DNA from: Arcticibacter pallidicorallinus
GTDB lineage: Bacteria; Bacteroidota; Bacteroidia; Sphingobacteriales; Sphingobacteriaceae
Assembly (NCBI RefSeq): GCF_003002875.1
Contig: NZ_PVTH01000005.1
Location: forward strand, 186,001-250,000
Reading direction: 5' to 3'
DNA length: 64,000 bases
A program made the position numbers and the translations under genes. Shown one piece after another: positions 6,831 through 45,814 of this stretch. Under the pieces are notes generated by a model, which was given only the letters and a program-made list of their open reading frames with translations, was not told the origin of the DNA and made no database searches. How positions within the stretch are numbered: the first letter of the stretch is position 1; each line of letters starts with the position of its first letter.

Positions 6831-6876
6831 GCTGGGGCTCTTTTCCAGATGGCAGAACTTTAGCAGCGCTTAATTC

Positions 6877-7461: not shown

Positions 7462-7471
7462 ATTTTTACTC

Positions 7472-8008: not shown

Positions 8009-8036
8009 GTGTTAAGGTTTTAGGGGACTAAAGATT

Positions 8037-11254: not shown

Positions 11255-11270
11255 TTAGAAATTTTCTGTA

Positions 11271-18767: not shown

Positions 18768-18840
18768 GACTTGGTAGCTCAGTTGGTAGAGCAACTGACT
18801 CTTAATCAGTGGGTCGAGAGTTCGAGCCTCTCCCAGGTCA
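18768..18840 (+). tRNA. tRNA-Lys (anticodon CTT)
   Basis: A complete 73-base cloverleaf. The acceptor arm is GACTTGG / CCAGGTC with one G-T pair. The D-arm is GCTCAGTTGGTAGAGC. The anticodon stem ACTGA/TCAGT holds loop CTCTTAA with anticodon CTT, and the T-arm is GAGAG-TTCGAGC-CTCTC. CCA is not encoded. From 18796 on, the 3' part is repeated exactly 26.9 kb downstream, so this tRNA is the insertion target of the island; the gene itself remains intact on the left side. Confidence 0.95.
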
Positions 18841-18880
18841 CTTGTAGAAAAAGCCCTTTTTGATATCAAGAAGGGCTTTT
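18796..18880 (+). repeat. attL: 85-bp direct repeat, tRNA-Lys 3' part plus terminator
   Basis: The 85 bases from the anticodon stem of tRNA-Lys through the following hairpin are identical to 45730-45814. The repeat ends abruptly at both sides (C versus T before it; TCTG versus CTTT after it). Together with a tyrosine recombinase just inside, this is a classic island attachment site. Confidence 0.93.
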
Positions 18881-19024: not shown

Positions 19025-20320
19025 ATGGCAACAGTCAGTATTATGGTGTATGATCATCATAAAAAAGCAGATGGAACGTACAATGTCAAGATCCGGATCT
19101 ATCACAAAAAAGTAAAAAAACTTATCGACACCACCTTTTTCGTCACTCAGAAACAACTGGATTCGAAGCTGAAGGTCAAAGACAAGTTCTTATTGAAGTC
19201 GCTGGAGGCCAATCTGGACAATTACAGAAAGTGGATCAGCGAGCTTGGGGATAAGCTTAATTTCTTCTCCGCTGAGGAGCTGAGAAATTATTTACGCGAT
19301 AAAGAGCAGGACGTCGATTTCATTAAATTCTGCGCGCAACATATCGAGCAGCTTAAAAGCGAAGGCAGAACAGCGACTGCTAATAATCATCGGACAGTTC
19401 GCAATAATTTGAATGATTATTTTGGACGGGATCATGCTTCTATTAATGAGATAAGTTCCAATATGCTCTTCTCCTTTGAAAAGTTCTTGAAGAGGCCACG
19501 GACCATGTACCGAGTAGATAACTGTGGCAAATTAATCGAAATTGAAGGCGAAGGTGCCAGTGCCAGTAGTATTCACAACTACATGAGAGATCTCCGAACC
19601 CTTTTTAATGCCGCTTGTACTGCTTACAACAACGAGGATCTGGGTATCTATAAAATAAAGCACTATCCCTTCAAAAAATACAAAATAGGCTCTCCTCCCC
19701 TAACCAGGAAAAGGAATATTTGCATAGAAGAGGTTAAACAGATCCGAGATTGTGTAGTGGAACCAAATAGCAGAGCCGAACTAGCCAGAGACCTGTTTAT
19801 GCTAAGTTTTTATTTATGCGGAATGAATGCTGTAGATCTTTATCAAATCGATAAAGACAGCGTGAAAAATGCAAGATTGGAGTATAGCCGATCAAAAACG
19901 CGTCTCGTCAGAAAGGATAACGCGTTTATTAGTATTAAAGTTGTTCCCGAAGCCAAAGTGCTATTAGATAAATATGCAGGCACACTTCAGTACCGGTATA
20001 ATACAATCCAAAACTTAAACAGGGCAATTGGTAAAGGAATGCTTCAAATCAGAGAAATTACCGGGATTAACTTCATTACATTCTATTGGGCAAGGCATAC
20101 TTTTGCTAATCTCGCCAGGAATAAATGCCGGATGAGTAAAGATGATGTAGCACTTGCGCTTAATCATATAGATGAAGGACACCGCACCACGGACATTTAT
20201 ATAGAAAAGGATTGGAGTATTATTGACGAAGTACAAGAAAAGGTTGTTGCTTTACTTGAACCGGAAATAGGAAACGAAATAGTGGTTATCGATCGTAGTG
20301 TCGTTATGAGGGTTGTTTAG
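19025..20320 (+). CDS. tyrosine recombinase / integrase of the tRNA-Lys island
   Basis: The 431-residue protein has the Bacteroidota integrase layout: an N-terminal arm-binding domain (VSIMVYDHHKKADGTYNVKI), a SAM-like core-binding domain, and a C-terminal catalytic domain. Catalytic motifs are HxxR-like FYWARHTFANLARNK and the Tyr nucleophile in TTDIYIEKDWS. The usual first catalytic Arg region is altered (MLSFYLCGMNAVDLYQI), as seen in many Bacteroidetes elements. It starts 145 bp after attL and reads away from tRNA-Lys, so it is the likely enzyme for excision and insertion of the island. Confidence 0.9.
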   Translation: MATVSIMVYDHHKKADGTYNVKIRIYHKKVKKLIDTTFFVTQKQLDSKLKVKDKFLLKSLEANLDNYRKWISELGDKLNFFSAEELRNYLRDKEQDVDFIKFCAQHIEQLKSEGRTATANNHRTVRNNLNDYFGRDHASINEISSNMLFSFEKFLKRPRTMYRVDNCGKLIEIEGEGASASSIHNYMRDLRTLFNAACTAYNNEDLGIYKIKHYPFKKYKIGSPPLTRKRNICIEEVKQIRDCVVEPNSRAELARDLFMLSFYLCGMNAVDLYQIDKDSVKNARLEYSRSKTRLVRKDNAFISIKVVPEAKVLLDKYAGTLQYRYNTIQNLNRAIGKGMLQIREITGINFITFYWARHTFANLARNKCRMSKDDVALALNHIDEGHRTTDIYIEKDWSIIDEVQEKVVALLEPEIGNEIVVIDRSVVMRVV

Positions 20321-20970
20321 AATCGTGAGTGCTACTATTTCGGGATTGAAAATGACATTTTCTTTCTTATAATGCAATATAAAAGAAAGGTTTATTGTCA
20401 TCGAAAAACCGACTTAGCTTTAGGTAGAGCGACCGGGTTTACACTTTGTAAAAACTGAGTTAGTATATCGTTCGTCGACTAGGATTAACAAGGAACATCA
20501 AGAAGTTGATTTGTTATTATAGGTTTCAAATCAACTCTATGTCATGAGAAATTGGCAAAATCCTCTTGCCGTTAACTTCGGAAAAAGAATTCCGGAAATA
20601 GAACGTCGTAAAATCGGGAAAATGTTTTTTGACCTTGCTAAGAAAAATCCGTAAATTGTTCTCTGTAAGCTTGAAAGCGTGATTTTTCGACATGCAACAG
20701 GAGCAGTCCAAAGGACTCATAATCTTTTGTTCCGTGCATAGATCCAGCCGGGGAATACATTAGGGCAATAAGTGAACCACTGAGCGCAGTATACCTACTT
20801 TCGTTCTTCTGTCTAAGCCTGCATTGCTAAAATAAATTTGAAACCCTGAATCATAACATCTTTCATCATCCACAATCGCTCCAAAAGTAAGACCTCGCAG
20901 GTTTGAAAAGTAAAACAATCGTTATTATTGGTTATCCTTGATTATTTTTGGACTAACTTAGAATCCTTTT
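20321..20970. other. island spacer after the integrase
   Basis: 650 bases without a convincing gene. It holds the 128-bp end module at 20602-20729. The remainder is AT-rich with no RNA gene or IS. A 64-codon minus-strand frame across the module has a look-alike in the inverted module at 35.5 kb and is taken as a by-product of the shared DNA, not a gene. Confidence 0.5.
20602..20729 (+). repeat. island end module with tRNA-Met core remnant
   Basis: This 128-bp segment matches the inverted segment 35521-35648 without gaps at about 84 percent identity (20 mismatches counted by eye). It ends with TCCAAAGGACTCATAATC, the anticodon arm of a tRNA-Met, then diverges after CTTTTG. It looks like the terminal arm plus part of the core of an element that targets tRNA-Met. 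Confidence 0.6.
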
Positions 20971-25834: not shown

Positions 25835-28800
25835 ATGAATGAAAGCGGACTTACCTGGTCTAAAGTTGATTGGCAGGACTTCCAAAAGATCAGTCTTTTT
25901 TTATACCATAAGCAAATGGGCGACCTTTCTGCGGAAGAATTCTTGCGGCAGGGGCATTTTCAATCAGGTATTGACTTGCTGTCTTTTCGCCAGGAAAGCG
26001 GCAAACACGTCTGCATTCAGTGTAAACACACTAACTTAACTTTTTCTAAACTAAAAAAAATAGTTCCCTTGTTTCTGTCAGGAGAATATGGGGAAACCTC
26101 CGAAAGCTTTATTATTACGACTAGTGCAGACCTTCAAAAGCCGGAAATCCAATCCTGGATTACAAGGCAAAAACGTGAGTTGCGGGAAAAATATGCAATT
26201 GCATTTGATATTTGGGACCGTTCACGTTTAGAAGATGCTCTCACTTCACATTACGGTCTTACAGAAAAATATTTCGGAATAGCAGAAGCGAAAGCACATT
26301 GCTTTCAGCCGGCTCTTAATCTGCCTGAACTTAAGCCTGTTCCAGGCTTCTTGACCCGTCATATTCAACCAGTCACCGAGACAGGTGATACAGAGGCCTG
26401 GCATTTCGCAGAAAAAGAAAGATCCGTTCTGACATTGACATCATTGATCACCGGACAATCAGCACAAAGGGAGATTTGCGTAATTGCAGAGGCCTATGAG
26501 GGAAAGAGCAGCCTGATGCGGCAAACCGCATGGGAGCTTAGCCAGCTTGATCTTGCCATTGTCCCGCTTCTTTTAGACCTGAAATTCTGTTCAGTAATAC
26601 CTATCGGACAACTGTTGAGTGATCATTTTGAAAGCTGGATGAGCGTGCCCGCAAAAGATCTCGTCATACTGATTGATGGACTTGACGAAGTGCCCGCCGC
26701 GCAGTTCAATACGGTAGTCGGTCATATCCGTGATTTCGCAAGAAATCACCCGGCTGTGCGTGTTGCGTTTTCCTGCCGCAAAATGTTTTATAATTATCAA
26801 AACCTTAATGCGGAGCTGCCCGGTTTCCAATTTTATGAGTTGCTTGAACTGCACATGCGACAAATCTTCGATTACCTGGAAGAGCAACTGGGCGACTTTA
26901 ATAAAGCAGCAGCGTTTTATTCTAAAATGAATGGCTTAGGAATAGCCAACTTATTGGGAACGCCGTTTTATTTACACCAACTGGTGAAATGGTTTAATGA
27001 CCCTACGCAAGAAATGCCCAATAACAGGATCGCTATTGCCACCCGGTTTGTAGATGAATCACTGAGTGTTTCGGCAACCCGAAAGTTACGTTCGGGCCTC
27101 AGCTTTGATAAACATAAAGTAAAATACCGCGACGCTTTACAAAAATTGGCCATACTTCTGCAAATCAAAGGGCTTAATGCCTGTCAAGATGAACTGCTTC
27201 AGGAAGTATTTCCCCAAGAGGATATAGACCTTCTAACCCACAGCTCTATCCTTAATATACGGAATGGCCAATGGTCATTCATTAATGCTCTTTTCCAGGA
27301 ACAACTGGCTGCCCTTGCCCTACTAAAAATAGAGGCCACAGAGGTTATTGAGTTAGTTACCCTCGGTGACAAAATCCGGAAGATAAGCCGGAAATGGATC
27401 CAAACGCTCGCAACCTATTTATCCTTGTTGCCGGAAAACCATGAAGATCGTCAACTAATGGTGGCGCTTATTGAGGCCGATAATATTGAACTTTTGGCGT
27501 TAAGCGAAGGCAGTAAATTTAGCCCCGAGTTCCGGCTTGAAGTCCTACAAAAAATAATAAGCCGGACACACCGGCATCAAGCAAGGTTGGTCGCAATCGA
27601 CGAATCGAACCTTGCTTCATTTGCTGATAATGATGATGCTGTTGTAGATGAACTATTAGCCGTCTTGCTACTTGACACTACCGTAATAGTAAAGATTGTA
27701 GCCTGTCGGACACTTCGTTACCTGTTATTATCCGCATCCCAGGCGGAGCGTTATGCAAACTTGGCTAAAAAAGTGTTAGTCGATATCGACGACCCTGATC
27801 TTGGCCGATTACTTCTAGAAGCAATTGCACATTATAAGTTGGGAGATGAGCAGTTTCTAAATCAATTGCTGAAAAATCCATTATTAGATGCATCACATGA
27901 GTTTCGGCAGGGGTTGTATCAATATCTGTCGGCTCATAATTTGGTTGATACCCATTATAACTGGATACTTTCAGGCTTCCAGGCCCTTTATGCTCATAAT
28001 AAGTCTATTTCCCACTTTGGCTCCGAAAGGAAATTACTCGATATCGTTCTAACGACACGTGAGAGTCAGCATATCCGACATTTGCTTAAACAAGTACAGT
28101 GTGAGCCATTCCAAAGTTTTTTCCGACATGATAAAGACGTCACAAAAGCGTTTTATAAATCGCTCGCAGGAGTCTGTGCAGAAATATATCATTCAGACCG
28201 AACCATTATTTTCCCTGTTGTTGCTTACCTGATCTTTACCGGACGTCATCATTATGACCGAGAACCTAATGAGATGGTTGAATTCCTGGAAATCACGCAA
28301 ACTCACTCTTTAGGACTACGTATCGCAATGCTGTCGGAAAAAACCGATCTGCAAAAGTATTCCTTCAGCGGTGCGCTTCGGCCGGTTTGTTTTCCGGACA
28401 TTCTTTATGCGATTGAAGAAAGAGTTCTGGATCGCGAAGGCTTCAACATTTGCTGTAATGGCTTTTTTTATAGTCAGCAGCGTGATGCTTATGAGCAACT
28501 CGAAAAGTTAGGTGAAACAGTTTTCGGATTTGTAAATGAACCCAATCCTACAAATATTAGGTATCGCAAAACGCAGGAACGGAAAAGAAAGAACGACTTA
28601 TTATATATGGGCTCAAGAGAGGCATTCCGAAATGGCATCATTCAACTTTTTCAGATTGCGGGTAGTGAAACTATCAATACACCAGAACTCTACGAACGTT
28701 TTGATGAGGATAATCCGCGGTTAAACGTAAATTCTGTTTTGCTAACTTCATTCATCAGAGAACAATCTTCCGAAAAGGAGGCATCTTTGTATGACTGTTT

Positions 28801-29962
28801 AAACGCTATTGATAATCTGGAATATTTCAAAATATGGCGGGCTGACCAATTAAGGCGGAACCATATCATAGAATATTATCCGGATCTGGTAATACAACAT
28901 ATTGAGAAGTATTATAGCGAAGAGATAACATTTTTTCCATTCGATACATTGAGTGTAAACAGCTCTTACAACGAACGGTATCAATCCACACAATTGCTAA
29001 AAATATGGCGGGATTATCTTTTTCCAACAGATGAGGATATCCTCCTGAAGTTTATCCGCGTAAATACAGAGGGTTATGGTGGAATGCGATTTGCGTCGGA
29101 CAATAAAAGAAAATCTGTGACCAATGCATTGTTAAACCATTTTGATGAACGTAAATATCTCCTGAAACAACGTGTGCTAAGCAATCTCCAAACGGGTTTG
29201 ACCGATATAGCTATCATAGGAACGCATCTAGAGTTTTGCCGTGAACTAAGTATCAAAGAAGCGCTGCCCTATATTTTAGGCTTTATTCTAAATGAACAAG
29301 CTGAGCTCAATGACATAGATGATTATATGAAATTGTATGTTTCGCTTGGCGGCCCGCATTCAGATCTTTTGCCGGTTTTCAATAAAGTAACGGACTTAAA
29401 TGGCTACCTACTAATGTTTATGGTCAAACTGCTCCAAGAAACCCATCCGTTAGCTGTGATTGAAAAGCTACTGATATCACTCCATTCCGATGAAACTTCA
29501 CCGGAACGAAAAATTGAAGCAGCAAGGCATTTGTCTCAACTTGGAAATCAGGAAGGGTTTAGCTTTCTGATCAGCAAATTTGAAATTGGAAAGATCGCGC
29601 CCTTTGAGATACAGGGTAACGTTAAGATTTGGGGAGTAGAAACCGAGTGGGCATTGCGACAGTTGAAACCGCTTATGTCTATTTTGCTAGATGCAAAAAC
29701 AGATAATATCAGGTTTCATCATTCACCAAAGGACTTACTGCTTGAAATATTTAATGGCTTTGCAGCTAAAAGCGAGAAAGATCTTCAGTTAGTTACAGGT
29801 CTGATGTATCAGTGTGCCAAAGAACTGGCTACAAGCTACCCAAAGAACTCCGGTCACCTAGGTTGGCATGCAGAGCAAATGACGGAGAGATATCGAGAAA
29901 TCAATGTCGTTCCGTTATCGACTAAGGAGATAAAAAAATTATTTGAGCAGATTAGCAATTGA
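25835..29962 (+). CDS. Mrr-like nuclease fused to NACHT-like STAND NTPase (1375 aa)
   Basis: Residues 40-70 carry a PD-(D/E)xK nuclease core of the Mrr type: GHFQSGIDLLSF (Asp47) and HVCIQCKHT (Gln62-Cys-Lys64). Residues 213-310 form a NACHT-like NTPase: a Walker A variant AEAYEGKSSL (Lys224; the first Gly is replaced) and Walker B DLVILIDGLDEVP (275-287), then VAFSCRKMF. About 1000 residues of helical repeat sequence follow, the usual sensor position. Bacterial NACHT and Avs proteins with this nuclease-NTPase-repeat order abort infection after sensing phage proteins; this role is inferred. It appears to be a single-gene system, divergent from the Gabija-like pair. Confidence 0.75.
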   Translation: MNESGLTWSKVDWQDFQKISLFLYHKQMGDLSAEEFLRQGHFQSGIDLLSFRQESGKHVCIQCKHTNLTFSKLKKIVPLFLSGEYGETSESFIITTSADLQKPEIQSWITRQKRELREKYAIAFDIWDRSRLEDALTSHYGLTEKYFGIAEAKAHCFQPALNLPELKPVPGFLTRHIQPVTETGDTEAWHFAEKERSVLTLTSLITGQSAQREICVIAEAYEGKSSLMRQTAWELSQLDLAIVPLLLDLKFCSVIPIGQLLSDHFESWMSVPAKDLVILIDGLDEVPAAQFNTVVGHIRDFARNHPAVRVAFSCRKMFYNYQNLNAELPGFQFYELLELHMRQIFDYLEEQLGDFNKAAAFYSKMNGLGIANLLGTPFYLHQLVKWFNDPTQEMPNNRIAIATRFVDESLSVSATRKLRSGLSFDKHKVKYRDALQKLAILLQIKGLNACQDELLQEVFPQEDIDLLTHSSILNIRNGQWSFINALFQEQLAALALLKIEATEVIELVTLGDKIRKISRKWIQTLATYLSLLPENHEDRQLMVALIEADNIELLALSEGSKFSPEFRLEVLQKIISRTHRHQARLVAIDESNLASFADNDDAVVDELLAVLLLDTTVIVKIVACRTLRYLLLSASQAERYANLAKKVLVDIDDPDLGRLLLEAIAHYKLGDEQFLNQLLKNPLLDASHEFRQGLYQYLSAHNLVDTHYNWILSGFQALYAHNKSISHFGSERKLLDIVLTTRESQHIRHLLKQVQCEPFQSFFRHDKDVTKAFYKSLAGVCAEIYHSDRTIIFPVVAYLIFTGRHHYDREPNEMVEFLEITQTHSLGLRIAMLSEKTDLQKYSFSGALRPVCFPDILYAIEERVLDREGFNICCNGFFYSQQRDAYEQLEKLGETVFGFVNEPNPTNIRYRKTQERKRKNDLLYMGSREAFRNGIIQLFQIAGSETINTPELYERFDEDNPRLNVNSVLLTSFIREQSSEKEASLYDCLNAIDNLEYFKIWRADQLRRNHIIEYYPDLVIQHIEKYYSEEITFFPFDTLSVNSSYNERYQSTQLLKIWRDYLFPTDEDILLKFIRVNTEGYGGMRFASDNKRKSVTNALLNHFDERKYLLKQRVLSNLQTGLTDIAIIGTHLEFCRELSIKEALPYILGFILNEQAELNDIDDYMKLYVSLGGPHSDLLPVFNKVTDLNGYLLMFMVKLLQETHPLAVIEKLLISLHSDETSPERKIEAARHLSQLGNQEGFSFLISKFEIGKIAPFEIQGNVKIWGVETEWALRQLKPLMSILLDAKTDNIRFHHSPKDLLLEIFNGFAAKSEKDLQLVTGLMYQCAKELATSYPKNSGHLGWHAEQMTERYREINVVPLSTKEIKKLFEQISN

Positions 29963-31177: not shown

Positions 31178-31771
31178 ATGAACAGGCTTGAGGAATTAAA
31201 AAAGCAACTTAAAAGAGGCCGGGTGTATCGGAGGTATGATTTAGTCAAATGGTCTAAATCTGTTGATCGGCACCTTGATGCTTTGGTTGAGGAAGATACA
31301 CTTCAAAAACTTTCTCAAGGCCTATACTATTATCCGAAACTAAGTGCCTTTGGTAAAACTCCACCGGAGGAAGATGTTTTGATACGAAGCTTTCTTAAAG
31401 ACGATAGATTTTTGCTTACTTCAGCAAGTTCTTATAACAGTTTAGGGGTTGGTACGCAGTTATATAACGAAAGGACGGTATACAATCATAAAAGGCACGG
31501 TGAATTTAAACTAGGGAACAGAAAGTTCTCATTCCGGATGAAGCCACACTTTCCGAGTAAAGTAACCAAAGAATTTTTGTTGGTTGATCTGGTTAATAAC
31601 CTTGAAACCCTTGCCGAAGATCCAACAGAAGTATTAAAAAAAATAGCTTTAAAGGTTCGTACTATGGACACCAAAAAGTTAAAACGTTATGTGTCTCAGT
31701 ACGGAAATGCAAAGGCAAAAAAGATATTAACTCCATTATTGGAGTTCCCAGCTAAACAAGACGTCTCTTAG
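31178..31771 (+). CDS. orphan AbiEi-like antitoxin (DUF6088 type)
   Basis: A 197-residue protein with an N-terminal winged-helix region (YRRYDLVKWSKSVDRHL, then LSQGLYYYPKLSAFGKTPP) and the family motif LTSASSYNSLGVGTQLYN. These match the AbiEi/DUF6088 antitoxin type, which represses the operon and counters an AbiEii nucleotidyltransferase. No toxin gene follows on the same strand; the next gene is a toxin on the opposite strand belonging to another pair. It is therefore an orphan, or regulates in trans. Imperfect direct repeats flank it. Confidence 0.7.
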   Translation: MNRLEELKKQLKRGRVYRRYDLVKWSKSVDRHLDALVEEDTLQKLSQGLYYYPKLSAFGKTPPEEDVLIRSFLKDDRFLLTSASSYNSLGVGTQLYNERTVYNHKRHGEFKLGNRKFSFRMKPHFPSKVTKEFLLVDLVNNLETLAEDPTEVLKKIALKVRTMDTKKLKRYVSQYGNAKAKKILTPLLEFPAKQDVS

Positions 31772-31901: not shown

Positions 31902-32912
31902 CTATCTTGAATACGACAGCTTATTGATGCGTTTTTGTAAAACATGCAACCTATGCATCAACTCGCTAAAAGAAAGCGATTCACCATAAAACATACTTTC
32001 ACGCATGGCTTTATAATCATTTTCCCAATCTTTTAACGTTTCCCCTGACGGCAGAAAACGGATAGTAGCAGGTTGGTGCCCGCTATAATCTAAACCCCGC
32101 AATGCGTTGAATTTCTCCCGATGAGCAATAATACTGTGATACAACTCTTTATCGCTGAGAGCTTGTTCTGCATAGTCGGTACGCATTATGCGTTCAATAT
32201 CATATAAATGACGAGACATCCTCTCGCTTCTAACTTTTTCTTCTGCTTTGCTGAACTCCTCATGTAACAAGAAAATCTTTTCCAAAAAGGTGCGCGGTGG
32301 TGTCACGGTCAAAATGCTAAACGGTGAACCTGCGACCTCGTTGTTTTTTAACGTCTGTCCAATCAATGAGCCAACTTCTCGTTGTTCGGAAGGTTCTCGT
32401 AATGAGCGGGCTCCAATTTCAATTAGTACAGCCTCACGTAAATATGGATCTTTATCGAGAACTGAGGCATAGTTCAACACGAGCACCTGAGGATCACGGT
32501 CATGTTCAGTTGTTTCTTTGACCGTTAATGAAAATAGTTCAGTTGGTATCCCAATAGCAAGAAACTGCTCTTCAAGATTTTTGCGAAATTCTCCCGATAT
32601 AAAGGCGCAGGAATCACGGCGTAACGTTTTAATCTTTGTCTTACTCAAATCTCCGGGGTATCCGAGTACTGCACGATCCAGCACCAAATCTATATCTTCT
32701 GAAAAACGATCTATCAAGCCCCACGACTTGCTGAGCGATGTGCCACCTTTAAACACCATGGCATCTGACCAAGGTGTCTGGAATATCGCTTTTAATGCCA
32801 GTGTCACCCACCAGTCCTTTTCTATGGCGCCTGCTGGTAAGCCACTGCGGCTACTGGTTAAACCTAATAATTCTCGTTGACGTTCCGCTGTATTTTGTAG
32901 CCAAGCGATCAT
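31902..32912 (-). CDS. AbiEii/AbiGii-type nucleotidyltransferase toxin
   Basis: A 336-residue protein with the nucleotidyltransferase signature of type IV AbiE toxins: VFKGGTSLSKSWGLIDRFSE followed by DIDLVLDR. The GG-S and D-x-D residues form the nucleotide site. The next conserved block is LIEIGARSLREPSE, and PPRTFLEKIFLLHEEF marks the C-terminal helical half. AbiEii toxins transfer nucleotides to RNA targets and stop growth during infection. Its start overlaps the antitoxin stop by 4 bp (ATGA), so toxin translation is coupled to that of the antitoxin. Confidence 0.88.
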   Translation of the reverse strand: MIAWLQNTAERQRELLGLTSSRSGLPAGAIEKDWWVTLALKAIFQTPWSDAMVFKGGTSLSKSWGLIDRFSEDIDLVLDRAVLGYPGDLSKTKIKTLRRDSCAFISGEFRKNLEEQFLAIGIPTELFSLTVKETTEHDRDPQVLVLNYASVLDKDPYLREAVLIEIGARSLREPSEQREVGSLIGQTLKNNEVAGSPFSILTVTPPRTFLEKIFLLHEEFSKAEEKVRSERMSRHLYDIERIMRTDYAEQALSDKELYHSIIAHREKFNALRGLDYSGHQPATIRFLPSGETLKDWENDYKAMRESMFYGESLSFSELMHRLHVLQKRINKLSYSR

Positions 32913-33523
32913 AACTTGATGTTTTTTTTAGCCTCCTTTAAAATATCTGCAATCCATGCGGGTGCGAGTTTTGCGTCATGTTCAAGGTTCTTTTCAGTCT
33001 CACTCTGCAAGATCTGAAGAATCCTCGTTCGAAGTTCGCCGCCCATTTTTGATTTGCCGATTTCCTGGGAAGCCTGGATTACCAAACTGCTGATAGGGCC
33101 TTGTACCGCTAATTTTTTTGGAGTAGTAGGTTTGAAGGTAATACTTTGTTTGCCAATACGAATTTTTCGTGGAGCACCATCTGTGAAGTAAACCAAATTC
33201 ATTGGAACCTGCGTCGATAAACCGAGCTTTTGAAGCGCAGCCGCGCCGGTTGGTATAATACGAGCATGGTCACGTTTGGCGATATACTCTGCGATTTCTT
33301 CTGTAGATGGATATAAATTTCCAAATACCGGATCTTTTTTGGGATATAAATAAATTCCCTGTGCAATTCTTTCTATTATCTTCTCTTTTTCTAACCGGGA
33401 TAGGGCCGTATTAATCGCCAACACACTTCCAATATCATAAAAATCGGATGGAGAAAATAGCAATCCGCGCTTATGCTTTACTATCTTATTATACACCTGA
33501 CTATGAACTGATTGTGAAGGCAT
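32909..33523 (-). CDS. AbiEi-type antitoxin (DUF6088)
   Basis: A 204-residue protein: an N-terminal winged helix (SQVYNKIVKHKRGLLFSP, then ALSRLEKEKIIERIAQGIYL), then the conserved block ARIIPTGAAALQKLGLST and a C-terminal half with RKIRIGKQSITFKPT. In AbiE systems this partner binds operator repeats and antagonises the nucleotidyltransferase without being a direct inhibitor complex. It is the first gene of the pair. A perfect 9-bp inverted repeat lies 17-43 bp upstream of the ATG. Confidence 0.85.
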   Translation of the reverse strand: MPSQSVHSQVYNKIVKHKRGLLFSPSDFYDIGSVLAINTALSRLEKEKIIERIAQGIYLYPKKDPVFGNLYPSTEEIAEYIAKRDHARIIPTGAAALQKLGLSTQVPMNLVYFTDGAPRKIRIGKQSITFKPTTPKKLAVQGPISSLVIQASQEIGKSKMGGELRTRILQILQSETEKNLEHDAKLAPAWIADILKEAKKNIKL

Positions 33524-33936: not shown

Positions 33937-35166
33937 TTAAACTACCTCCTTTAGCTTCTTCCTCAAAGCCGCCATATCTTCACTTATCTTCTTCTCCAAC
34001 ACCTTAGCATATATTTGAGTCGTTGCAATCTTAGTATGCGCCAGCATCTTACTCACTGTCTCAATTGGAACTCCGTTAGACAGCGTAACCGTGGTAGCAA
34101 ACGTATGTCTCGCTAAATGAAAAGTGATATTCTTCTTAATACCACAGACCTCGGCAATCTCTTTCAGATAAGCATTTACCTTCTGATTAGAAACTACCGG
34201 AAAAATGGTATTAGTTAGTAAGGCTCTTTGATTGTCTTTATATTTCTTCAGGATTTCTACCGCTTTAGGTAACAGTGGGGTATTAACCGGAATATCCGTC
34301 TTCTGTCTGCAAGTTCTCACCCACATTTCTCCGTCAGCAGCTTCTACGATATTATCGTGCTTCAGATTGATCACATCCACATAAGTAAGGCCGGTATAGC
34401 AGCAGAAAACAAAGAGATCGCGAATCATATCAATCCGGTCGATATCAAAAACTTTGTTCTCCATGGTCTTTAGTTCTTTTTCAGAAAGATGCTCCCGGTT
34501 GACTTTCTGAATTTTGAGCTTGTAGTTAGCAAACGGGTTCTTAGAAATCCATTCAAGCTGGATAGCGAGGTGAACCATCTTCTTAACGCGAATAATATGC
34601 TTCATTACTCCATTATTGTTTAAGGGCTTCTGGTGGTCTACAGGCTTATGATTACGAAGGAACGTTTCAAAGTCGTAGATGAACTTGTAATCGAGTTCGT
34701 GAAGATACAGGTCTGCTGATTTGAACTGCTTTTGAATAAACTTTACGAGATAGCGCTGAGTAACATAGTAATGCTTAAGTGTACTCCATTTGAGCGTACT
34801 GGCGGCCGTTTCGTTATGGTATTCAAACAAGCTGCTTAACGTGTGGACTTCTTTGGCTGTTCCCAGGAATGCATCCTTGATGGCTTCAGCGCTAATCATC
34901 TTTCCTTTAAGATTTAGCTGTTGGTAGCAGGTTCCGATTGCCATCCTAACTTCCTGCAAATAATTGTTGATGCTTTTAAATTCTTCCCGGTTTCCTTTTA
35001 ATGCTCCTTTGGCATTATCCCAGCTCTTTACCTCCACTAATTGTTTTAAGGCGATATAGCTACGCAACCTGCTAACCGTTACGCAAGCGTAAACTGGTAC
35101 TTTCCCCTCTCTTACCTTATCAGTTCTGATAGTGAAGTGAATTCCGAATGACTGTGATGATCTCAT
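33937..35166 (-). CDS. second tyrosine recombinase / integrase (tRNA-Met type element)
   Basis: A 409-residue integrase with the Bacteroidota layout: arm domain (FGIHFTIRTDKVREGKVPVY), SAM-like domain, and catalytic domain with LFVFCCYTGLTYVDVINLKH, HLARHTFATTVTLSNG (HxxR) and LAHTKIATTQIYAKV (Tyr nucleophile). It is intact and different in sequence from the first integrase. Upstream on the same strand lie paired 10-bp repeats, a hairpin terminator and a tRNA-Met 3' fragment, the same order as tRNA-Lys, terminator and the first integrase. It probably belonged to a separate element. Confidence 0.9.
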   Translation of the reverse strand: MRSSQSFGIHFTIRTDKVREGKVPVYACVTVSRLRSYIALKQLVEVKSWDNAKGALKGNREEFKSINNYLQEVRMAIGTCYQQLNLKGKMISAEAIKDAFLGTAKEVHTLSSLFEYHNETAASTLKWSTLKHYYVTQRYLVKFIQKQFKSADLYLHELDYKFIYDFETFLRNHKPVDHQKPLNNNGVMKHIIRVKKMVHLAIQLEWISKNPFANYKLKIQKVNREHLSEKELKTMENKVFDIDRIDMIRDLFVFCCYTGLTYVDVINLKHDNIVEAADGEMWVRTCRQKTDIPVNTPLLPKAVEILKKYKDNQRALLTNTIFPVVSNQKVNAYLKEIAEVCGIKKNITFHLARHTFATTVTLSNGVPIETVSKMLAHTKIATTQIYAKVLEKKISEDMAALRKKLKEVV

Positions 35167-35491: not shown

Positions 35492-35544
35492 GTGCGCCCA
35501 CCTGGGCTCGAACCAGGGACCAAAAGATTATGAGTCCTTTGGAT
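35492..35544 (-). pseudogene. 3' fragment of tRNA-Met (CAT)
   Basis: On the minus strand the sequence holds an anticodon arm with loop CTCATAA, the T-arm CCTGG-TTCGAGC-CCAGG and the acceptor strand TGGGCGC with discriminator A. The 5' half (acceptor strand and D-arm) is absent; the end module is there instead. It is therefore an attachment core and not a functional tRNA. Confidence 0.75.
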
Positions 35545-35648
35545 AGCTCCTTTTGCTTCGAGAAAAATCGCGCTTTCCAGCTTACAGAGGCCAATTTACG
35601 GCTTTTTCTTGGGAAGGTCAAAAATCGCTTTGTCGATTTTATGACGTT
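35521..35648 (-). repeat. island end module, inverted copy
   Basis: This is the inverted counterpart of 20602-20729, 128 bp with no gaps and about 84 percent identity. Here the module runs straight into the tRNA-Met core, a terminator and the second integrase. That order (outer end, core, integrase) is expected of a circular junction (attP), not of one integrated end. Confidence 0.6.
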
Positions 35649-36893: not shown

Positions 36894-39800
36894 ATGCTTG
36901 AAAATACGATCGAAACGCCTGCTATGCTACGCGCAGCCGTGGGCGAGGTTTTTGACGAACATCGCGACCGCAGCGAAGAATCCTTAGAGTCCGCACGGAA
37001 AGTCCAAGCGCTATTCGCAGCCTCGTACAAATCGCGTTTCTTTTTAGAATTACTACAAAATGCACGCGATGCCATTATTGCAGGCAGGGTAAAAAATGGG
37101 AGTATAAAAGCATGGTTGGAAAACGATTGTCTTTATTTTGCCAATAACGGTATTCCTTTTGACCGCAAGGGGGTACGCAGTCTTTGTTTTCCAGCTATAT
37201 CAACCAAGGATTCAAGGGACTTCATCGGCCATAAAGGGATCGGTTTCAGTGCCGTGCTTGAAATAACGGATTCGCCGGAGGTGATCACAAACTACGGAAC
37301 GATCGTCTTCAATACAGCTGCCGCTGCAATAGAGTTGGGTAACAAGCATTTACCGTCCGAATTGCCGCTTTTCCAGTACCCGATGTACCGGGAGGAAAAC
37401 ATAACGGCTGCATACCCCGTACTTGCAACACAGGGCTTTACCACGATCTTTCGGTTCCCATTAAAGGATGCCTTCAAAGGAAAGACAAGCCTAGTTGCGG
37501 CTAACCTGCTTGCGCCAGAAGACCTCGTATTTTTAAAAGCTATTCAGTTTCTACAGATCGGCGATTCCGATTTAACCTTGAATGATGAGCATAACCCGGT
37601 TACAGTTTCGACTGGCGGCTCAAAAAGAAACTTTAAGTCTTACGATACAATTCTCGAATTACCCCCGGCAGATATTGCACGGTTTTCACCCGAAGAGTTA
37701 GAATCTTTCGGGGATGCGACCAGCGCTGAATGCCGCTATTTGCTAGAAATCGGCGAAGACGGGAAATTTAAACCTACCCCGAGAGCTCGCTTGCACCTTT
37801 TTTACGGGATGGATTTCGGCACAGGCCTTTCATTTAGTATACACAGCCTATTTGCCGTCACCCTCGACCGTAAGCGACTGGCGACCGACAGCTATTTAAA
37901 CCAAACGCTATTCAAGCAAATCGCGGCTTTTTACTCGGGGACGTTCCTTGAAAAGATCAAAGCGGAGTTCGCAAGGCAAGAATTAGAGATCTTGGCCTTT
38001 ACGCGTGAAAGCAACAACCAATTGGATAAGTTCTATGATCATTTGCGGGCTGGATTGCGTACGTCGTCTTTTATATACCATGAACCCAGCAATGCCTATA
38101 AAAGTCCATCCGAGATCTACTTAGTATCCCAAGCAGAATACGAAGTTTTCCGTGATGGGTTCTTGGGGGAAAAGTGTTTATTTAAAGCGCCAAGCGAGAG
38201 GATCAAATCGTGGTTGCAAAAGGAATGCGGCGTGGTTGACCTGCCTGATTCTTCTATCAAGCATCATATCGAGGCGAAGTGCCTACAATTCGTTGATGAC
38301 CCGGCGTTTTTTACCAGTTTATACGAGCTATTAAATAGCCGGAAACTAACGGTCACCGATAAGCAGGTATTACTCACGCAAAATAATACCCTAGTTAAGT
38401 CGAACGAAACAGAAATCTACTACCAAAGGCGTTCTAATTTAAAGTCGCCGGCGATACTAGACGCGTCGGTATCTTTTTTAAATAACGAGATCAAGATAGA
38501 CAGGATCAGGGAAGAGGCACGGAAATACCTTGGGGTGCGGGAATTCAACGAGCAGAACTTGATCAATACCGCGATCAAGGTTTTAAAGGTGCAGAATCCT
38601 ATTATAGCTGAAGATCAAAAGATCATCGTGGAATTGCTCTATTTCCTAAAGCAATTTGAAAGCATCGATGATACGGCTTGCCAATCGATAACAGAATCTA
38701 TTCACTTACCAACCCAGAATAGAAAAACGGAGAATTTGTCTTGGCGGTCGCCACTCTATTCACCGGTTTACTTTGACGACTTTCTTTATGGTTCTTTTTA
38801 CAACCAAGATTTCGATGCAATTGATTGGACCGCGCTTGGTATCACCAATGATGTAGAAAGCTGGCGATCATTTTTAGCCCGCTTAGGCGTTTGGACCATC
38901 CCGGCTATTTATATAGTAGAAGGAGAAACTACTTTCGAGGATAATGATAGCCACACGATCATTACGAACGACAGGGCCTTACATCAACCATATTACTTAT
39001 CAGCAGAGTTTGCAATAGCGTGGTGCAATGCTTGGCCGACCTACCGGCTTTTTATAATTACCAATAGATATAACGCAAAAATGGCTGTCGATGGGCAGTC
39101 CTATGACGACAAGAAAAAGACCCGGTCTTCGGCTGCCTACCGGCTATTGCAACAATTAGCTTGGATCCCCGCAAAGCAAGCTGGTCAACCGGAGACCCTT
39201 CACCGCGCAAAGGAAGTTATTTACCTTACCCAAGATGAAAAGATCAAAACCGCCAACCAAGTTATAAGTGCTTATTACCCCGTGGGCGAACTGGATAACG
39301 TATTGCATGCACAATTTATAGAAGATTTTGATCTAAAACACCTTAATATAAAATCTGCGCAAAACTTTTACAACTTACTGGACCATGTTGCGGCGACGGA
39401 TCTAAACAGCATTAGCGACCTGCGTAACTATGAGAAATGCTATCACCGGTTCTTAGCATACCTGTCCGATTTTTACAATGCCCACCGCCAGCATGTTTCT
39501 TTGCCCGAATTGAAAAAGAGGAAATATCTTTGCCGAAGCCTTATTGATCAAAGCTATGATTGGGAATTAGGCGAAAATTGCATTCATATCGATGAAAAGG
39601 CATTACTTGATAAACTCTCGGCAAATGGGTTACTTCGATATATTGATAACCCGTTCTCATTTACTAAGAGGGACAAAAACGAATGGGGTAAACATGCGAA
39701 GGATATTGGGCGGCCGATAAGTTCAATTTTCGCGCTTAGCCTAGGCAGTACGGGCAACGTTCAAAGTTTAATTTCAACGGTCAAAAATCTTGAGCTCGTC

Positions 39801-40943
39801 ATCGCGTTTGTCGAAGCCGACCTCGACAACAATTTTACGGATGTTGATATCCAGTATTTTAAAACCGCCGAATTATACATTCACCAGCAATTACTAGTCA
39901 ATTATCATTACGTCGCAGGCGATAAAACGATAGAATTAAGGCAGTTGTTTTACACTACCGGGGATAAAGATAAAGCAAGGCTTAACATCGAAACTAATGT
40001 GCAATACCGTTCACGCCAATTGAGCGAAGCGCTTTTGGATTATTTTGAACATTATACAGGTAGGGAACTTAAACGGTTAAATTTAGTATTTGAACAACTT
40101 TTAGACCCGGTAAGAAAAGGCGAAAGTAAAAGAAGATACGCGGCTGATCTTGATATTGATCTTGTAAGGGTGGAGCAAATTCAAAATTTACTCACCGAAG
40201 ATTATTATGTTGACAAACCTCGTGATGAAGGAGGCACCATAATTGTTGTTCCGGTCCCAACTAACCCCAACCTTCACCCAGCATTTAAACCTGTAAGTAA
40301 AGTTGTGCATCAAGAGGTCGAGCAGATCGAACTGGAAACAGAGTTCACTTTAGCAGAGTCGCTGGAGTACCTTGACCAATTCACATCTTTACCAAGCGAA
40401 TTGTTCACCCCAGCAGTGGATACAGCCACTTCACCAGTCTTTACAGCCCCCGTGACCCGTAGACCGGCTACAAACCATACGATGCCTATTCCAAGAGCGG
40501 AGCTATCAGAGGATGCACGTAAGGATATTGGTTTAATGGCTGAGTATTATGTGTACAAAAAGCTTATTGAAGCTGAACCCAGCTTATTGGAACTATTAGG
40601 CCTGGATGCCAGCGTGGCGAAATCGGTCTGTTGGTTCAATCTCCCGAGAATAGCCGACCAGTCCATCGATGACCAAAGTGTTGGCATCGGGCATGACCTT
40701 TATTTAGACTCGCATGACCTCGCTATAGAGGTAAAAGGTATGGTCGACAACACACCATATGTCCACATTACAGGTCCAGAATTTGATAGTATGCGACGTC
40801 GTGGTGATAAATACTTTTTGATCATTATTAAGAAAGTGATCAAAGGAGATCAGATAAAAACATTGGTCATACGAGATCCTTATAGAGAAATCGTTGATCG
40901 TAACCTGAAATTTATTGAAGCTAAGGTTAGCGGAACGGTGTAG
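36894..40943 (+). CDS. sacsin/HSP90-type GHKL ATPase with C-terminal DUF3883 (1349 aa)
   Basis: The N-terminus is a GHKL ATPase: N-box FFLELLQNARDAIIAG (Glu52, Asn56, Asp59), then LYFANNGIPFDRKGV and the lid box FIGHKGIGFSAVLEIT (112-118). The long middle has no recognised domain. Residues 1211-1349 match DUF3883: GIGHDLYL (Asp1268) and LAIEVKGM (Glu1279, Lys1281), a PD-(D/E)xK-like arrangement that may be nucleolytic. Sacsin-like ATPase plus DUF3883 proteins are frequent in defence islands. ATG 36894 is used because a -7-like TATCTTTA covers the in-frame ATG at 36861; that start would add 11 residues. A PLD-like gene follows after 61 bp. Confidence 0.75.
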   Translation: MLENTIETPAMLRAAVGEVFDEHRDRSEESLESARKVQALFAASYKSRFFLELLQNARDAIIAGRVKNGSIKAWLENDCLYFANNGIPFDRKGVRSLCFPAISTKDSRDFIGHKGIGFSAVLEITDSPEVITNYGTIVFNTAAAAIELGNKHLPSELPLFQYPMYREENITAAYPVLATQGFTTIFRFPLKDAFKGKTSLVAANLLAPEDLVFLKAIQFLQIGDSDLTLNDEHNPVTVSTGGSKRNFKSYDTILELPPADIARFSPEELESFGDATSAECRYLLEIGEDGKFKPTPRARLHLFYGMDFGTGLSFSIHSLFAVTLDRKRLATDSYLNQTLFKQIAAFYSGTFLEKIKAEFARQELEILAFTRESNNQLDKFYDHLRAGLRTSSFIYHEPSNAYKSPSEIYLVSQAEYEVFRDGFLGEKCLFKAPSERIKSWLQKECGVVDLPDSSIKHHIEAKCLQFVDDPAFFTSLYELLNSRKLTVTDKQVLLTQNNTLVKSNETEIYYQRRSNLKSPAILDASVSFLNNEIKIDRIREEARKYLGVREFNEQNLINTAIKVLKVQNPIIAEDQKIIVELLYFLKQFESIDDTACQSITESIHLPTQNRKTENLSWRSPLYSPVYFDDFLYGSFYNQDFDAIDWTALGITNDVESWRSFLARLGVWTIPAIYIVEGETTFEDNDSHTIITNDRALHQPYYLSAEFAIAWCNAWPTYRLFIITNRYNAKMAVDGQSYDDKKKTRSSAAYRLLQQLAWIPAKQAGQPETLHRAKEVIYLTQDEKIKTANQVISAYYPVGELDNVLHAQFIEDFDLKHLNIKSAQNFYNLLDHVAATDLNSISDLRNYEKCYHRFLAYLSDFYNAHRQHVSLPELKKRKYLCRSLIDQSYDWELGENCIHIDEKALLDKLSANGLLRYIDNPFSFTKRDKNEWGKHAKDIGRPISSIFALSLGSTGNVQSLISTVKNLELVIAFVEADLDNNFTDVDIQYFKTAELYIHQQLLVNYHYVAGDKTIELRQLFYTTGDKDKARLNIETNVQYRSRQLSEALLDYFEHYTGRELKRLNLVFEQLLDPVRKGESKRRYAADLDIDLVRVEQIQNLLTEDYYVDKPRDEGGTIIVVPVPTNPNLHPAFKPVSKVVHQEVEQIELETEFTLAESLEYLDQFTSLPSELFTPAVDTATSPVFTAPVTRRPATNHTMPIPRAELSEDARKDIGLMAEYYVYKKLIEAEPSLLELLGLDASVAKSVCWFNLPRIADQSIDDQSVGIGHDLYLDSHDLAIEVKGMVDNTPYVHITGPEFDSMRRRGDKYFLIIIKKVIKGDQIKTLVIRDPYREIVDRNLKFIEAKVSGTV

Positions 40944-41004
40944 ACAACACCTTTTTATCGAAAATGGGCTTCCTGCTTCATCAATTATTTCAGTAACTAA
41001 TTTC

Positions 41005-42075
41005 ATGGAACAAAAAATTGTTATTAAGGCTCATTTTGAAAATATTGAACCAGTGGTGGTCAAATTGATCAGCGAGGCCAAAATATCTGTATTGATAGTT
41101 ATGGCGTGGCTAACGAGTAACGTTATTAAACGTGCTTTATACCGGGCCAAGCTTCGGAACTCACTGTTGCAAGTAGAACTGGTGGTTGATGATAACGAGA
41201 TCAATGACCAGTATTTTTTAGACGTTGCTAACGATTTCCAAGCCATAGGGATATTGATCAAAAAGAAGATCGATGGGCGCTTTTTACACCGCAAGTTTAT
41301 GATCATAGACGAGGATCTGACCTTGCTCGGGTCTTACAATTATAGCGGCAAGGCCAAAAGAAACGCGGAAAATGTGGCGTTGATTAGGGATGATAGATTT
41401 AACTCTATTCACAAACGTGTTTTCTGGGCCATCACCGAGGAGACCTACGTTGATGAAAACGTCCAATTATTATTTGATCACCCGGAGTTTGCCCAGCGTT
41501 TACTTTGTACCTACTATCCATTTACTCGTGAGCAATATAAATTGTACAAAGACCGCATTATAAATGGCTATTGCTTTACCCACGAAAATGGGCTTTATGA
41601 TGAAATAAAATATGATCCAGGCTTCATATTCAACCAAAGGTGTTGGATGGATCGTAAACTAATAGCAGGTGAATTCAAGTTACCGATCAATAAAGAACTT
41701 ATCAAAAATTGGATAGGAAGCCGTAATGAAAACCTTCTGATCGATGGTTACCGCGACGACCCTGAATATTGGGACGAACTTGGTGAACAAATAGAGCGGA
41801 ATTGGGATGCCGTAGATATTTTTTTTCGAACGCTGTTCGACACCACGTGGACGTATGATGTTCTCAAATCCATGATCAATAACCAAGTGGATATTATCAT
41901 CGAGGATAGGTTATGGCCAGATAATTTTGCTCTCTTTCTAAACCAAAAGCTGGTGAACAAACTTTTTGCATCCTTTCCTAAAATAGAAAATGATTACTCC
42001 AATCATGAAATGCAATTGGCAATTAATAGACTCGGAAAAAAGCTCAAAAAGAATAAAAAACAATCTCCTCTTTAA
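41005..42075 (+). CDS. PLD-like nuclease with one HKD motif
   Basis: A 356-residue protein whose N-terminal third is a phospholipase D-type domain: strand AKISVLIVMAWLTSN, then the HKD motif LHRKFMIIDEDLTLLGSYNY (His95, Lys97, Asp102) and KRNAENVAL (Glu122). A single HKD motif means it must dimerise, as in the Nuc and DrmC type nucleases. The remaining 220 residues match nothing I know. ATG 41005 lies after the GHKL gene; the frame is open further up but would overlap it. Same strand and short spacing suggest an operon with the ATPase. Confidence 0.75.
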   Translation: MEQKIVIKAHFENIEPVVVKLISEAKISVLIVMAWLTSNVIKRALYRAKLRNSLLQVELVVDDNEINDQYFLDVANDFQAIGILIKKKIDGRFLHRKFMIIDEDLTLLGSYNYSGKAKRNAENVALIRDDRFNSIHKRVFWAITEETYVDENVQLLFDHPEFAQRLLCTYYPFTREQYKLYKDRIINGYCFTHENGLYDEIKYDPGFIFNQRCWMDRKLIAGEFKLPINKELIKNWIGSRNENLLIDGYRDDPEYWDELGEQIERNWDAVDIFFRTLFDTTWTYDVLKSMINNQVDIIIEDRLWPDNFALFLNQKLVNKLFASFPKIENDYSNHEMQLAINRLGKKLKKNKKQSPL

Positions 42076-42260: not shown

Positions 42261-42998
42261 CTATTCTTGTTTCAATATTCCTTTTCTCAGGGACTCCCCT
42301 TTGAGGTCTATACGGTGGGATGAGTTAACTATACGATCAAGGATTGCATCGGCAATAGTGCCTTCACCACCGATAATTTCGTACCATGCGGAAACGGGTA
42401 TCTGGGAGGATATCATGGTTGACTTTTTTCCGTGGCGATCGTCGATGATATCCATCAGCGTTTCCCTGTCTTGATTGTCGAAAGCCTGCAGGCCAAAGTC
42501 ATCAAGAATAAGCAGTTCCATTTTCGTCAACTTTTCCAGTTCTTTGAGGTAAGTTCCATCCACTTTGCTCAATTTTAGTTTCTTAAAGAGCCTGGCTGTA
42601 ATCGTATACAGTGTTTTTATGCCCGATAGACAGGCCTGGTGTCCCAGTGCTTGACAGAGGTAACTTTTACCTGTGCCGGAAGCGCCGCAGATAATGATAT
42701 TTTCTTTTCGGGATACAAAATCAAGTGTACCAAGCCGGGCGAACATATTTCTGTCCAGATTCCTCTCTGCTGAGTAGTTGATGTCAGCGAGGTTGGCATT
42801 CTGTCTGAAGGAGGCTTGTTTCAATAGGCGCTCAGTCTTATTGTTTTCCCGATCCTCCCATTGATGATCGGTCAGCAGGGCCAGATATTCATCGCATGTC
42901 ATTCCCTCAAGCCTGTTTTGCTCCACGTGCTGAAGATGTAACCTGGCCATGGCACCCAGGCGCATACTCCGTAATTTGTCAATTGTCTGATTGTTCAT
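42261..42998 (-). CDS. istB: IS21-family helper ATPase IstB
   Basis: The 245-residue AAA+ protein assists the IstA transposase in target choice and strand transfer. Walker A is IICGASGTGKSYLCQALG, and Walker B is MELLILDDFGLQAF. The sensor region SQIPVSAWYEIIG and the N-terminal helical part (MARLHLQHVEQNRLEGMTCD) are typical. It is full length and lies 18 bp behind istA. Confidence 0.92.
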   Translation of the reverse strand: MNNQTIDKLRSMRLGAMARLHLQHVEQNRLEGMTCDEYLALLTDHQWEDRENNKTERLLKQASFRQNANLADINYSAERNLDRNMFARLGTLDFVSRKENIIICGASGTGKSYLCQALGHQACLSGIKTLYTITARLFKKLKLSKVDGTYLKELEKLTKMELLILDDFGLQAFDNQDRETLMDIIDDRHGKKSTMISSQIPVSAWYEIIGGEGTIADAILDRIVNSSHRIDLKGESLRKGILKQE

Positions 42999-43016
42999 TG
43001 TTCTGTCTTTTTGTTG

Positions 43017-44594
43017 TTATTGGTATGCGGAGGCTCCGCGTATATTACTATGAAAAGGGATATGGGGCTGTGCCTGCTCCGGCTGTCCGTCAGCCAGGGG
43101 CACTTTGTCCATATTATTTTTAAGGATATTTTTTATGCAGCTGTACGAGCAGGCATCCGTATCCAGAGCTCTTTTGCAGGCATCGTTGAGCCTCTGAGAG
43201 CCATAGGCCCGGTATAGCTGGATCACACCCAAGGCTCGCTTGTAGCCAATCTCAGGGTAATCCTGCGATGTCACTATCTTTTCTACACACTTTAGTACAT
43301 GCTCCCCGTGTAAGGCTGCTTTTTTACTGAAGAACTCCGGGCTCCAATCAGAGTAAAACCGATGCGTGCTACTCAGGTGATCTTTGTTGGTGTTATAGCT
43401 TCCTCTGGTCAGGTTACGCTGGTGCAAGGCAATCCTTTCTTGGTTATAGAATACTTCGATCCGGCTTTGGGTGTAATGGATCGAGGTCTCCTTTCCAATA
43501 TACCGGTGGGGAACGCTATAGTAGCTGTTGTCGGGCGAGAAGTAAACATATCCCATTTTCTGGACTTTAGCTCTTTTATAGTCCTTTAACTCATATGACT
43601 GAGCTGGTAACTCTTTGAGATACTGCCTTTCAATACTCTGGAAGAGTTCGATGCGGCTGGATTCCTTTCGCTTGAACAGAAGATTGTTATAACTCTTCAG
43701 CAGTATGCTGATCTCTTTGTTGAGATCTTCCAGCGAGAAGAAGGTCATCTCGCGCAATGGATAATAGATTCGTTGATAGACCAGGTGCACAGCATTCTCG
43801 ACCAAAGCTTTGTCCTGAGGCGAGTACCCACGCGTAGGATTGATCACACAGTTATAGTGACGGGCAAAGTCTTTGAAGCTCCGATTGATATCCGCCTCAT
43901 ACTTGCTGGCACGATTGACCGCTGACCGTAGGTTGTCTGATATGATGGCCTTGGGTGCTCCGCCATAGAAACGCAGGGTCTCTGTACAGCACGAAATCAG
44001 GTCACTCCTTTTTTGGCTCATACATGCCCGTACGTAGGTGTACTGACTGCAGGGGAGAATGGCAACGAATACTTCTACGGCAATAAGCTCCCCGGTTCCC
44101 TTATTGATTATATGTAGCTTCTTTCCCGCAAAGTCGACAAACATCTCCTCACCGGCCAGGTGATCAAGTTTCATGGAGCCCTTCTCCTTAGGGTATTTAC
44201 GACGGTAATGCTCAAGGAATTGGGTGTAACTGTATGGTTCCTGGGCCTGCTCTACGTATTGCTGGTAGTGGTGCAAAAAAGTGAACCCAGGATGATTCCG
44301 CGCTTGGTTGACCCCTTCGAAATATAGCATAAGCTCGTTATGCCGTTCTGTGTCAACAGTAGTATGGGAGGAAAACAACTCAGATAAGTCAGCATTCTCA
44401 AAGACTAAGAGTTCTTCCAATGAAATTCCGCTTGCTGCAAACAGCTGCATATAGGTGTTAACCGTATTCCGGGAGATCCCTAGTATTGAGCCTATCCTGC
44501 GGTTGCTGGTACCATCAAGATGTAATGTAATTATTTGTTTCAAGTCCATCGGATCAAGTATGTTGGCCATGTCGCTGTATATGTAAAGCGGCAA
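43017..44594 (-). CDS. istA: IS21-family transposase IstA
   Basis: A DDE transposase of 525 residues. The N-terminal helix-turn-helix is DGTSNRRIGSILGISRNTVN. The catalytic core has EEMFVDFAGKKLHI (first Asp), AIISDNLRSAVN (second Asp) and SPQDKALVENAVHLVY (Glu). The protein is full length, so the element may still be active. Its start lies just inside the right end of the IS, after the outer transposase-binding units. Confidence 0.92.
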   Translation of the reverse strand: MPLYIYSDMANILDPMDLKQIITLHLDGTSNRRIGSILGISRNTVNTYMQLFAASGISLEELLVFENADLSELFSSHTTVDTERHNELMLYFEGVNQARNHPGFTFLHHYQQYVEQAQEPYSYTQFLEHYRRKYPKEKGSMKLDHLAGEEMFVDFAGKKLHIINKGTGELIAVEVFVAILPCSQYTYVRACMSQKRSDLISCCTETLRFYGGAPKAIISDNLRSAVNRASKYEADINRSFKDFARHYNCVINPTRGYSPQDKALVENAVHLVYQRIYYPLREMTFFSLEDLNKEISILLKSYNNLLFKRKESSRIELFQSIERQYLKELPAQSYELKDYKRAKVQKMGYVYFSPDNSYYSVPHRYIGKETSIHYTQSRIEVFYNQERIALHQRNLTRGSYNTNKDHLSSTHRFYSDWSPEFFSKKAALHGEHVLKCVEKIVTSQDYPEIGYKRALGVIQLYRAYGSQRLNDACKRALDTDACSYSCIKNILKNNMDKVPLADGQPEQAQPHIPFHSNIRGASAYQ

Positions 44595-45729: not shown

Positions 45730-45814
45730 TGACTCTTAATCAGTGGGTCGAGAGTTCGAGCCTCTCCCAGGTCACTTGTAGAAAAAGCCCTTTTTGATAT
45801 CAAGAAGGGCTTTT
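45730..45814 (+). repeat. attR: 85-bp direct repeat of the tRNA-Lys 3' part
   Basis: It is identical over 85 bases to attL (18796-18880), including the anticodon loop, T-arm, acceptor 3' strand and terminator. Without a 5' half it is not a tRNA gene. It marks the right end of the island. Confidence 0.93.

Follow-up and report, generated by a model that had tools for sequence, protein, structure and literature searches.

A diverged TmtA (Tiamat) gene and an adjoining single-HKD PLD-like gene, probably separate cargo of a defence island in Arcticibacter pallidicorallinus

The gene pair studied here lies in a window of 64,000 nucleotides (the whole stretch of DNA that was analysed), and the explanation that we consider likely is that it is not a unit: a diverged TmtA gene (Tiamat), whose product would act alone, and a separate cargo gene for a PLD-type nuclease would have become adjacent through island assembly, without a conserved operon. 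The basis of this conclusion was computed: the large protein belongs to the TmtA profile family, the motifs are intact, the partner is absent from the relatives read, and repeats bound the island. A first-pass annotation had proposed an unnamed two-gene system. Its reading of the domains, the catalytic residues and the island stands, as do its two open reading frames of 1349 and 356 residues, 61 bp apart on one strand, which the ORF calls reproduce; the new two-gene system itself is rejected, because the genes do not recur together in TmtA-side loci, in PLD-side loci or in the overlap between genomes. The coordinates are collected in Table 1.

Table 1. Positions in the window of the two genes, their domains and the features of the surrounding island.
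Feature	Position	Strand	Basis
TmtA-family (Tiamat) protein, 1349 aa	36894..40943	+	ORF call; PADLOC TmtA models
Sacsin-type GHKL ATPase domain, residues 50-211	37041..37526	+	Pfam SACS E 5.8e-9; NCBIfam NF047352 E 8.3e-21
DUF3883/NOV_C domain, residues 1256-1319, REase-like D1268...E1279xK1281	40659..40850	+	Pfam NOV_C E 3.8e-6
Gap between TmtA and PLD genes, 61 bp	40944..41004	+	sequence
Single-HKD PLD-like protein, 356 aa	41005..42075	+	ORF call, Pfam
PLDc_2 domain, residues 19-142, HxKx4D...GSYN at H95	41059..41430	+	Pfam E 7.1e-15
C-terminal domain of PLD protein, conserved across a small family	41431..42072	+	family alignment
tRNA-Lys, island integration site	18768..18841	+	tRNA scan
att-like direct repeat, 85 bp, left copy (tRNA-Lys 3' part + 39 bp)	18796..18880	+	repeat search
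att-like direct repeat, 85 bp, right copy, 100% identical	45730..45814	+	repeat search
Tyrosine integrase, nearest gene upstream of TmtA	33937..35166	-	Pfam
IS-like genes just downstream	42261..44594	-	by reading translations

The first-pass annotation recognised no named system here, but the large gene is TmtA by PADLOC. Eight TmtA models match its product (P0001) at E ≤ 3e-6; the best of them, PDLC03964, reaches E 8.7e-76 with 254 bits on the protein, PDLC03972 covers residues 45-1331, and TmtA models also match all four aligned sequences (the large protein and three orthologues). Tiamat is reportedly a single-gene system from the work of Millman et al. in 2022, and its family is said to protect against phage. 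The protein resembles Tiamat in being one very long chain with an N-terminal GHKL ATPase and a C-terminal DUF3883, and differs from it in being diverged (when genomes were searched with PDLC03964 it scored 229 bits, compared with 787-938 bits at three other loci) and in having a PLD gene on its 3' side, which the relatives read do not have.

The motifs of the large protein agree with this assignment to the GHKL ATPases: an N box, ELLQNARDA, begins at Glu52, followed by a G1-like box, FANNG, and a G2 box, IGHKGIG. Glu52 is invariant in the four aligned sequences. The asparagine of FANNG, found in the large protein and in its relatives L117-L120, occupies a position where aspartate is usual in GHKL proteins. 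The SACS and NOV_C matches both exceed the Pfam curated cut-offs; for DUF3883 (PF13020) the score of 27.3 bits lies above the cut-off of 22.1, all four aligned sequences match, and D1268...E1279-V-K1281 is invariant in all of them. A simple D...ExK pattern was present in 8 of the 16 proteins printed (the large protein, L117-L119 and L121-L124) and was not found in the truncated L120 or in seven distant proteins; GHKL and D...ExK motifs are both kept in the large protein and seven strong relatives. That DUF3883 is PD-(D/E)xK-like, as had been proposed from the sequence, agrees with published restriction-endonuclease analysis, a passage of which terms it a novel REase domain (PMC3710099). The long middle of the protein matches no Pfam family above cut-off, in line with the first-pass annotation.

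Alternative, longer TTG starts are available to both genes (36828 for the large gene, 40915 for the PLD gene); the ATG at 36894 is roughly where the alignment of the large protein with its orthologues begins. Against solved structures the large protein alone gave no match and profile A2 matched sacsin weakly (E 0.0099-0.031), while structure prediction gave two models with mean pLDDT of 39.9 and 33.5, too poor for use. By Pfam name, the NOV_C and SACS domains are shared with the plant NO VEIN protein and with sacsin, both of which are eukaryotic and serve other roles. In plant-associated samples, Tiamat calls fell on plant sequences, according to one report (PMC12409356).

The downstream protein (P0002) carries one copy of HxKx4D...GSxN, which places it among the single-HKD, Nuc-like PLD proteins, and H95, K97, D102 and N112 are invariant in six of six aligned sequences (the protein and five relatives). 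Pfam thus bears out the earlier calls of a sacsin-type GHKL ATPase, DUF3883 and a single-HKD PLD, and the two residues singled out as catalytic, Glu52 and His95, are intact and invariant in 4/4 and 6/6 aligned sequences, respectively. Profile matches to the 1byr endonuclease (E 1.2e-14), mitochondrial cardiolipin hydrolase (1e-11) and NucT (5.4e-9) agree with the single HKD motif in likening the protein to Nuc, NucT and PLD6, from which it differs by an extra C-terminal domain of ∼210 residues. This domain, like the middle of the ATPase, matched no Pfam family above cut-off, and its conservation in the family alignment defines a small PLD family; Pfam has no name for the domain.

Full-length relatives were found among 399 family genomes in G667 (47% identity), G700 and G616 (both 40%) and G570 (31%), and at 35% in three Flavobacterium loci recovered by scanning genome contigs with two peptide patterns; the two-pattern scan missed four family relatives found in the other genome set, so these PLD counts are lower bounds. 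The majority of the other matches share the PLD domain alone. Phage records contained no match to the large protein, and for the PLD protein the matches, to two Wolbachia phage WO records, were limited to residues 12-130; viral contigs scanned with both proteins and with profiles A2 and A3 held no relative. Three more specific identities for the PLD protein or its C-terminal domain were considered and rejected. The PLD domain resembles DrmC of DISARM (PADLOC E 2.8e-7), but the score is 24.6 bits against an NCBIfam equivalog cut-off of 133, and the gene is flanked directly by TmtA and IS-like genes. For MkoB and MkoC of Mokosh, the best stretches span 36 of 610 and 124 of 1136 profile positions, within the PLD part. 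A C-terminal domain shared with a 1624-aa ORF in L043 (E 1.4e-5 across the ORFs of a set of fetched loci) is probably a chance match, with a best stretch of 16.7 bits that looks methylase-like by eye. At another locus, L155 (9354-16619), a PLD relative lies near an OLD nuclease and an LRR-Roc-TIR protein whose TIR end is ThsB-like.

If the two genes formed a system, they should be found together, and the co-occurrence check that the first-pass annotation had called for went against the pair. From the TmtA side, the large protein matches in 20 of the 399 family genomes (E ≤ 1e-5). The close orthologues recovered number only four, in G716 (40%), G764 (40%), G540 (36%) and G774 (42%), and the last is broken by an internal stop that leaves the N-terminal 571 residues only. 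No PLD ORF occurs in the 17 loci fetched from 16 of these 20 genomes; the others are G659, G757 and G529, with short ORFs or the C-terminal end only, and the window's own genome. The fairest test of the pairing is the set of eight strongest TmtA relatives (L117-L124, profile scores of at least 429 bits), among them the four at 36-42% identity, and none of the eight has a PLD gene in the fetched stretch.

In the wider phylum, TmtA models match in 79 of 395 genomes, many at the DUF3883 end only. From these, twenty loci were fetched whose match fell in the ATPase part (other ATPase-part matches, e.g. G246, G207 and G297, fell outside the set), and one of them, L095 in G316, has a PLD ORF, about 4.4 kb off with five ORFs between; this PLD belongs to another subfamily and matches the window's protein over the PLD domain only. 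The combined figure for loci fetched on a match to the large protein or a TmtA model is thus 1/37, a figure that blends true TmtA with looser GHKL proteins because the 37 include many distant relatives, and that takes in some stretches cut off by the end of a contig, e.g. L104 and L094. The PLD-family profile, applied to the 455 ORFs of these loci, returned the same single match. Inspection by eye revealed no shared neighbour beside the TmtA orthologues. Two unusual settings were seen: in L088:3813-14962 (G335) a strong TmtA gene (6859-11298) is embedded in an operon for type I restriction, with the HsdS gene on one side and the HsdR gene on the other. The second setting, L049:4002-9074, comes from a Hymenobacter plasmid; there a TmtA-like stretch, divided among several annotated genes, stands behind a gene with a SAVED domain, and a nucleotidyltransferase lies upstream.

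The view from the PLD side is the same. Among 146 ORFs at the seven other loci with a full-length PLD gene (G667, G700, G616, G570 and the three from Flavobacterium), with about 9-10 kb of neighbourhood covered, there were no TmtA-profile matches at E ≤ 1; these seven amount to about five independent cases, because the three Flavobacterium islands are near-copies of each other. At the level of whole genomes, with one genome per species and the two 399-genome sets taken as the same draw on the agreement of their listed handles, 20 genomes match the large protein, 60 the PLD protein and 3 both, the window's own included, against 3.0 expected (P = 0.60). The window's genome is alone in both the TmtA set and the full-length-PLD set, where 0.25 would be expected. 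Plasmid records tell a similar story: 28 match the large protein and 25 the PLD protein, with none common to both lists, and a PLD product appears in none of the gene tables, which are incomplete, of the five TmtA-matching records opened (of the PLD-matching records, one was opened). In the literature, judged on titles and abstract openings, we recognised no description of the pair. We judge the PLD gene a separate passenger because nowhere else did relatives of the two genes turn up side by side.

The strongest rival is a genuine two-component variant, in which TmtA would sense infection and recruit or license the PLD nuclease as a second effector. The shared strand and the 61-bp spacing are compatible with co-transcription, which counts against independence, and the catalytic residues are intact in both proteins. 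At 40937-40951, over the TmtA stop, lies a weak terminator-like hairpin; the promoter and terminator scan found nothing over shuffled sequence, with 5 hairpins counted in the region where shuffles give 6.5, and no sign of function. There is a published precedent in the haloarchaeal prokaryotic Argonautes, where a PLD gene adjoins a defence gene and the PLD partner provides the catalytic centre (PMC11442185); here the neighbour is TmtA instead of an Argonaute, and recurrent linkage is lacking. A further TmtA-like locus, that in G316, does have a PLD gene in the same gene run, but the resemblance of that gene to the window's is confined to the PLD domain. Set against these points, PLD genes near none of the 8 strongest relatives and near 1 of 37 loci, and TmtA near none of 7 full-length PLD loci, make the two-component variant unlikely. 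More improbable still is its narrower form, a recent, lineage-specific Tiamat variant in which one ATPase switch would govern an REase domain in cis and a recruited HKD nuclease in trans.

The location of the genes would offer a ready explanation for their proximity. The exact 85-bp repeats bound about 27 kb that contain an integrase-like gene, Gabija, a 1375-aa protein, RadC, AbiE, a second integrase, TmtA, PLD and IS-like genes. The defence island of the first-pass annotation is borne out by its Gabija and AbiE genes. The downstream IS-like genes we take to be IstB/IstA-like insertion-sequence genes, and a GC content of 0.438 versus 0.387 was counted as further evidence of a mobile context. 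The tRNA-Lys site looks like an integration hotspot. An ABC-F gene to its left is conserved in five of five same-genus genomes, and along the left flank L163 and L166 align across the entire tRNA repeat, L164 and L165 into the tRNA itself, and L167 not as far as the tRNA; the L163 alignment continues into an integrase-like stretch. No empty site was seen: all five genomes have the left flank, and the right flank was matched in none within the stretch read.

Several other features of the island deserve mention. The integrase gene right after the tRNA-Lys (19025-20320, + strand) encodes arm and SAM-like domains with no catalytic-domain match at E 0.01, and may be degraded. Inverted 104-bp copies at 20626-20729 and 35521-35624 are 87% identical, an arrangement unlike the direct copies that simple integration would yield; the second adjoins a tRNA-remnant-like sequence (CAT anticodon by eye, none by ARAGORN) beside the second integrase. 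The 1375-aa protein (25835-29962, + strand), between Gabija and RadC, has sub-threshold matches to Mrr_cat_2 and NPHP3/STAND and none in PADLOC, and is a possible, as yet unassigned nuclease-STAND defence gene. Next to the AbiE pair at 31902-33523 stands a DUF6088 (AbiEi-like) gene (31178-31771, + strand) for which no toxin partner is evident.

A different reading is that this TmtA subfamily is a mobile-element factor, for exclusion or stability, and not anti-phage, the PLD gene likewise being an element gene. The orthologue L118 does adjoin RteC and relaxase genes by Pfam; L117 and L119 look conjugative or mobilisable (one L117 neighbour has no Pfam match) and the PLD relatives L153, L154 and L156 look mobile, in each case by eye only. 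Defence genes often travel on mobile elements, and the strong PADLOC Tiamat matches and the company of Gabija and AbiE in the window argue against an element factor, which we therefore regard as doubtful. Part of a study of a Pseudomonas island hotspot reports Tiamat as frequent there (PMC12629846), and part of another reports it as almost always chromosomal in Actinobacteria (PMC10482375), which counts against mobile cargo. Decaying cargo, both genes being intact yet no longer functional, would fit the IS-like genes just downstream, the repeat scars and the broken orthologue in G774, but neither ORF is truncated and the motifs are conserved in both, and we consider it very unlikely.

Returning to the reading of TmtA and PLD as separate cargo, a chance encounter would need little explanation if each travels independently on elements of a similar kind. 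We infer anti-phage activity, ATP hydrolysis, DNA cleavage and the sensing of some signal. The sacsin-type GHKL module and the long middle of TmtA might form an ATP-gated sensor or switch for infection, and the REase-like DUF3883 end would then be the likely nuclease, cutting DNA once infection had been sensed; this nuclease-effector mechanism is a tentative proposal that we would hesitate to favour. The PLD protein is probably a nuclease independent of TmtA, of the Nuc type, with putative activity as a dimer and a family-specific C-terminal domain.

The immediate consequence is that a probable chance neighbour is kept from receiving a system name. What is new here is modest: one TmtA subfamily that has diverged, plus a small family of PLD proteins whose C-terminal domain has no name. 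Two reports list Tiamat among systems of unknown mechanism (PMC12926258, PMC10482375), and the diverged TmtA subfamily in one Bacteroidota family is material for work on that mechanism.
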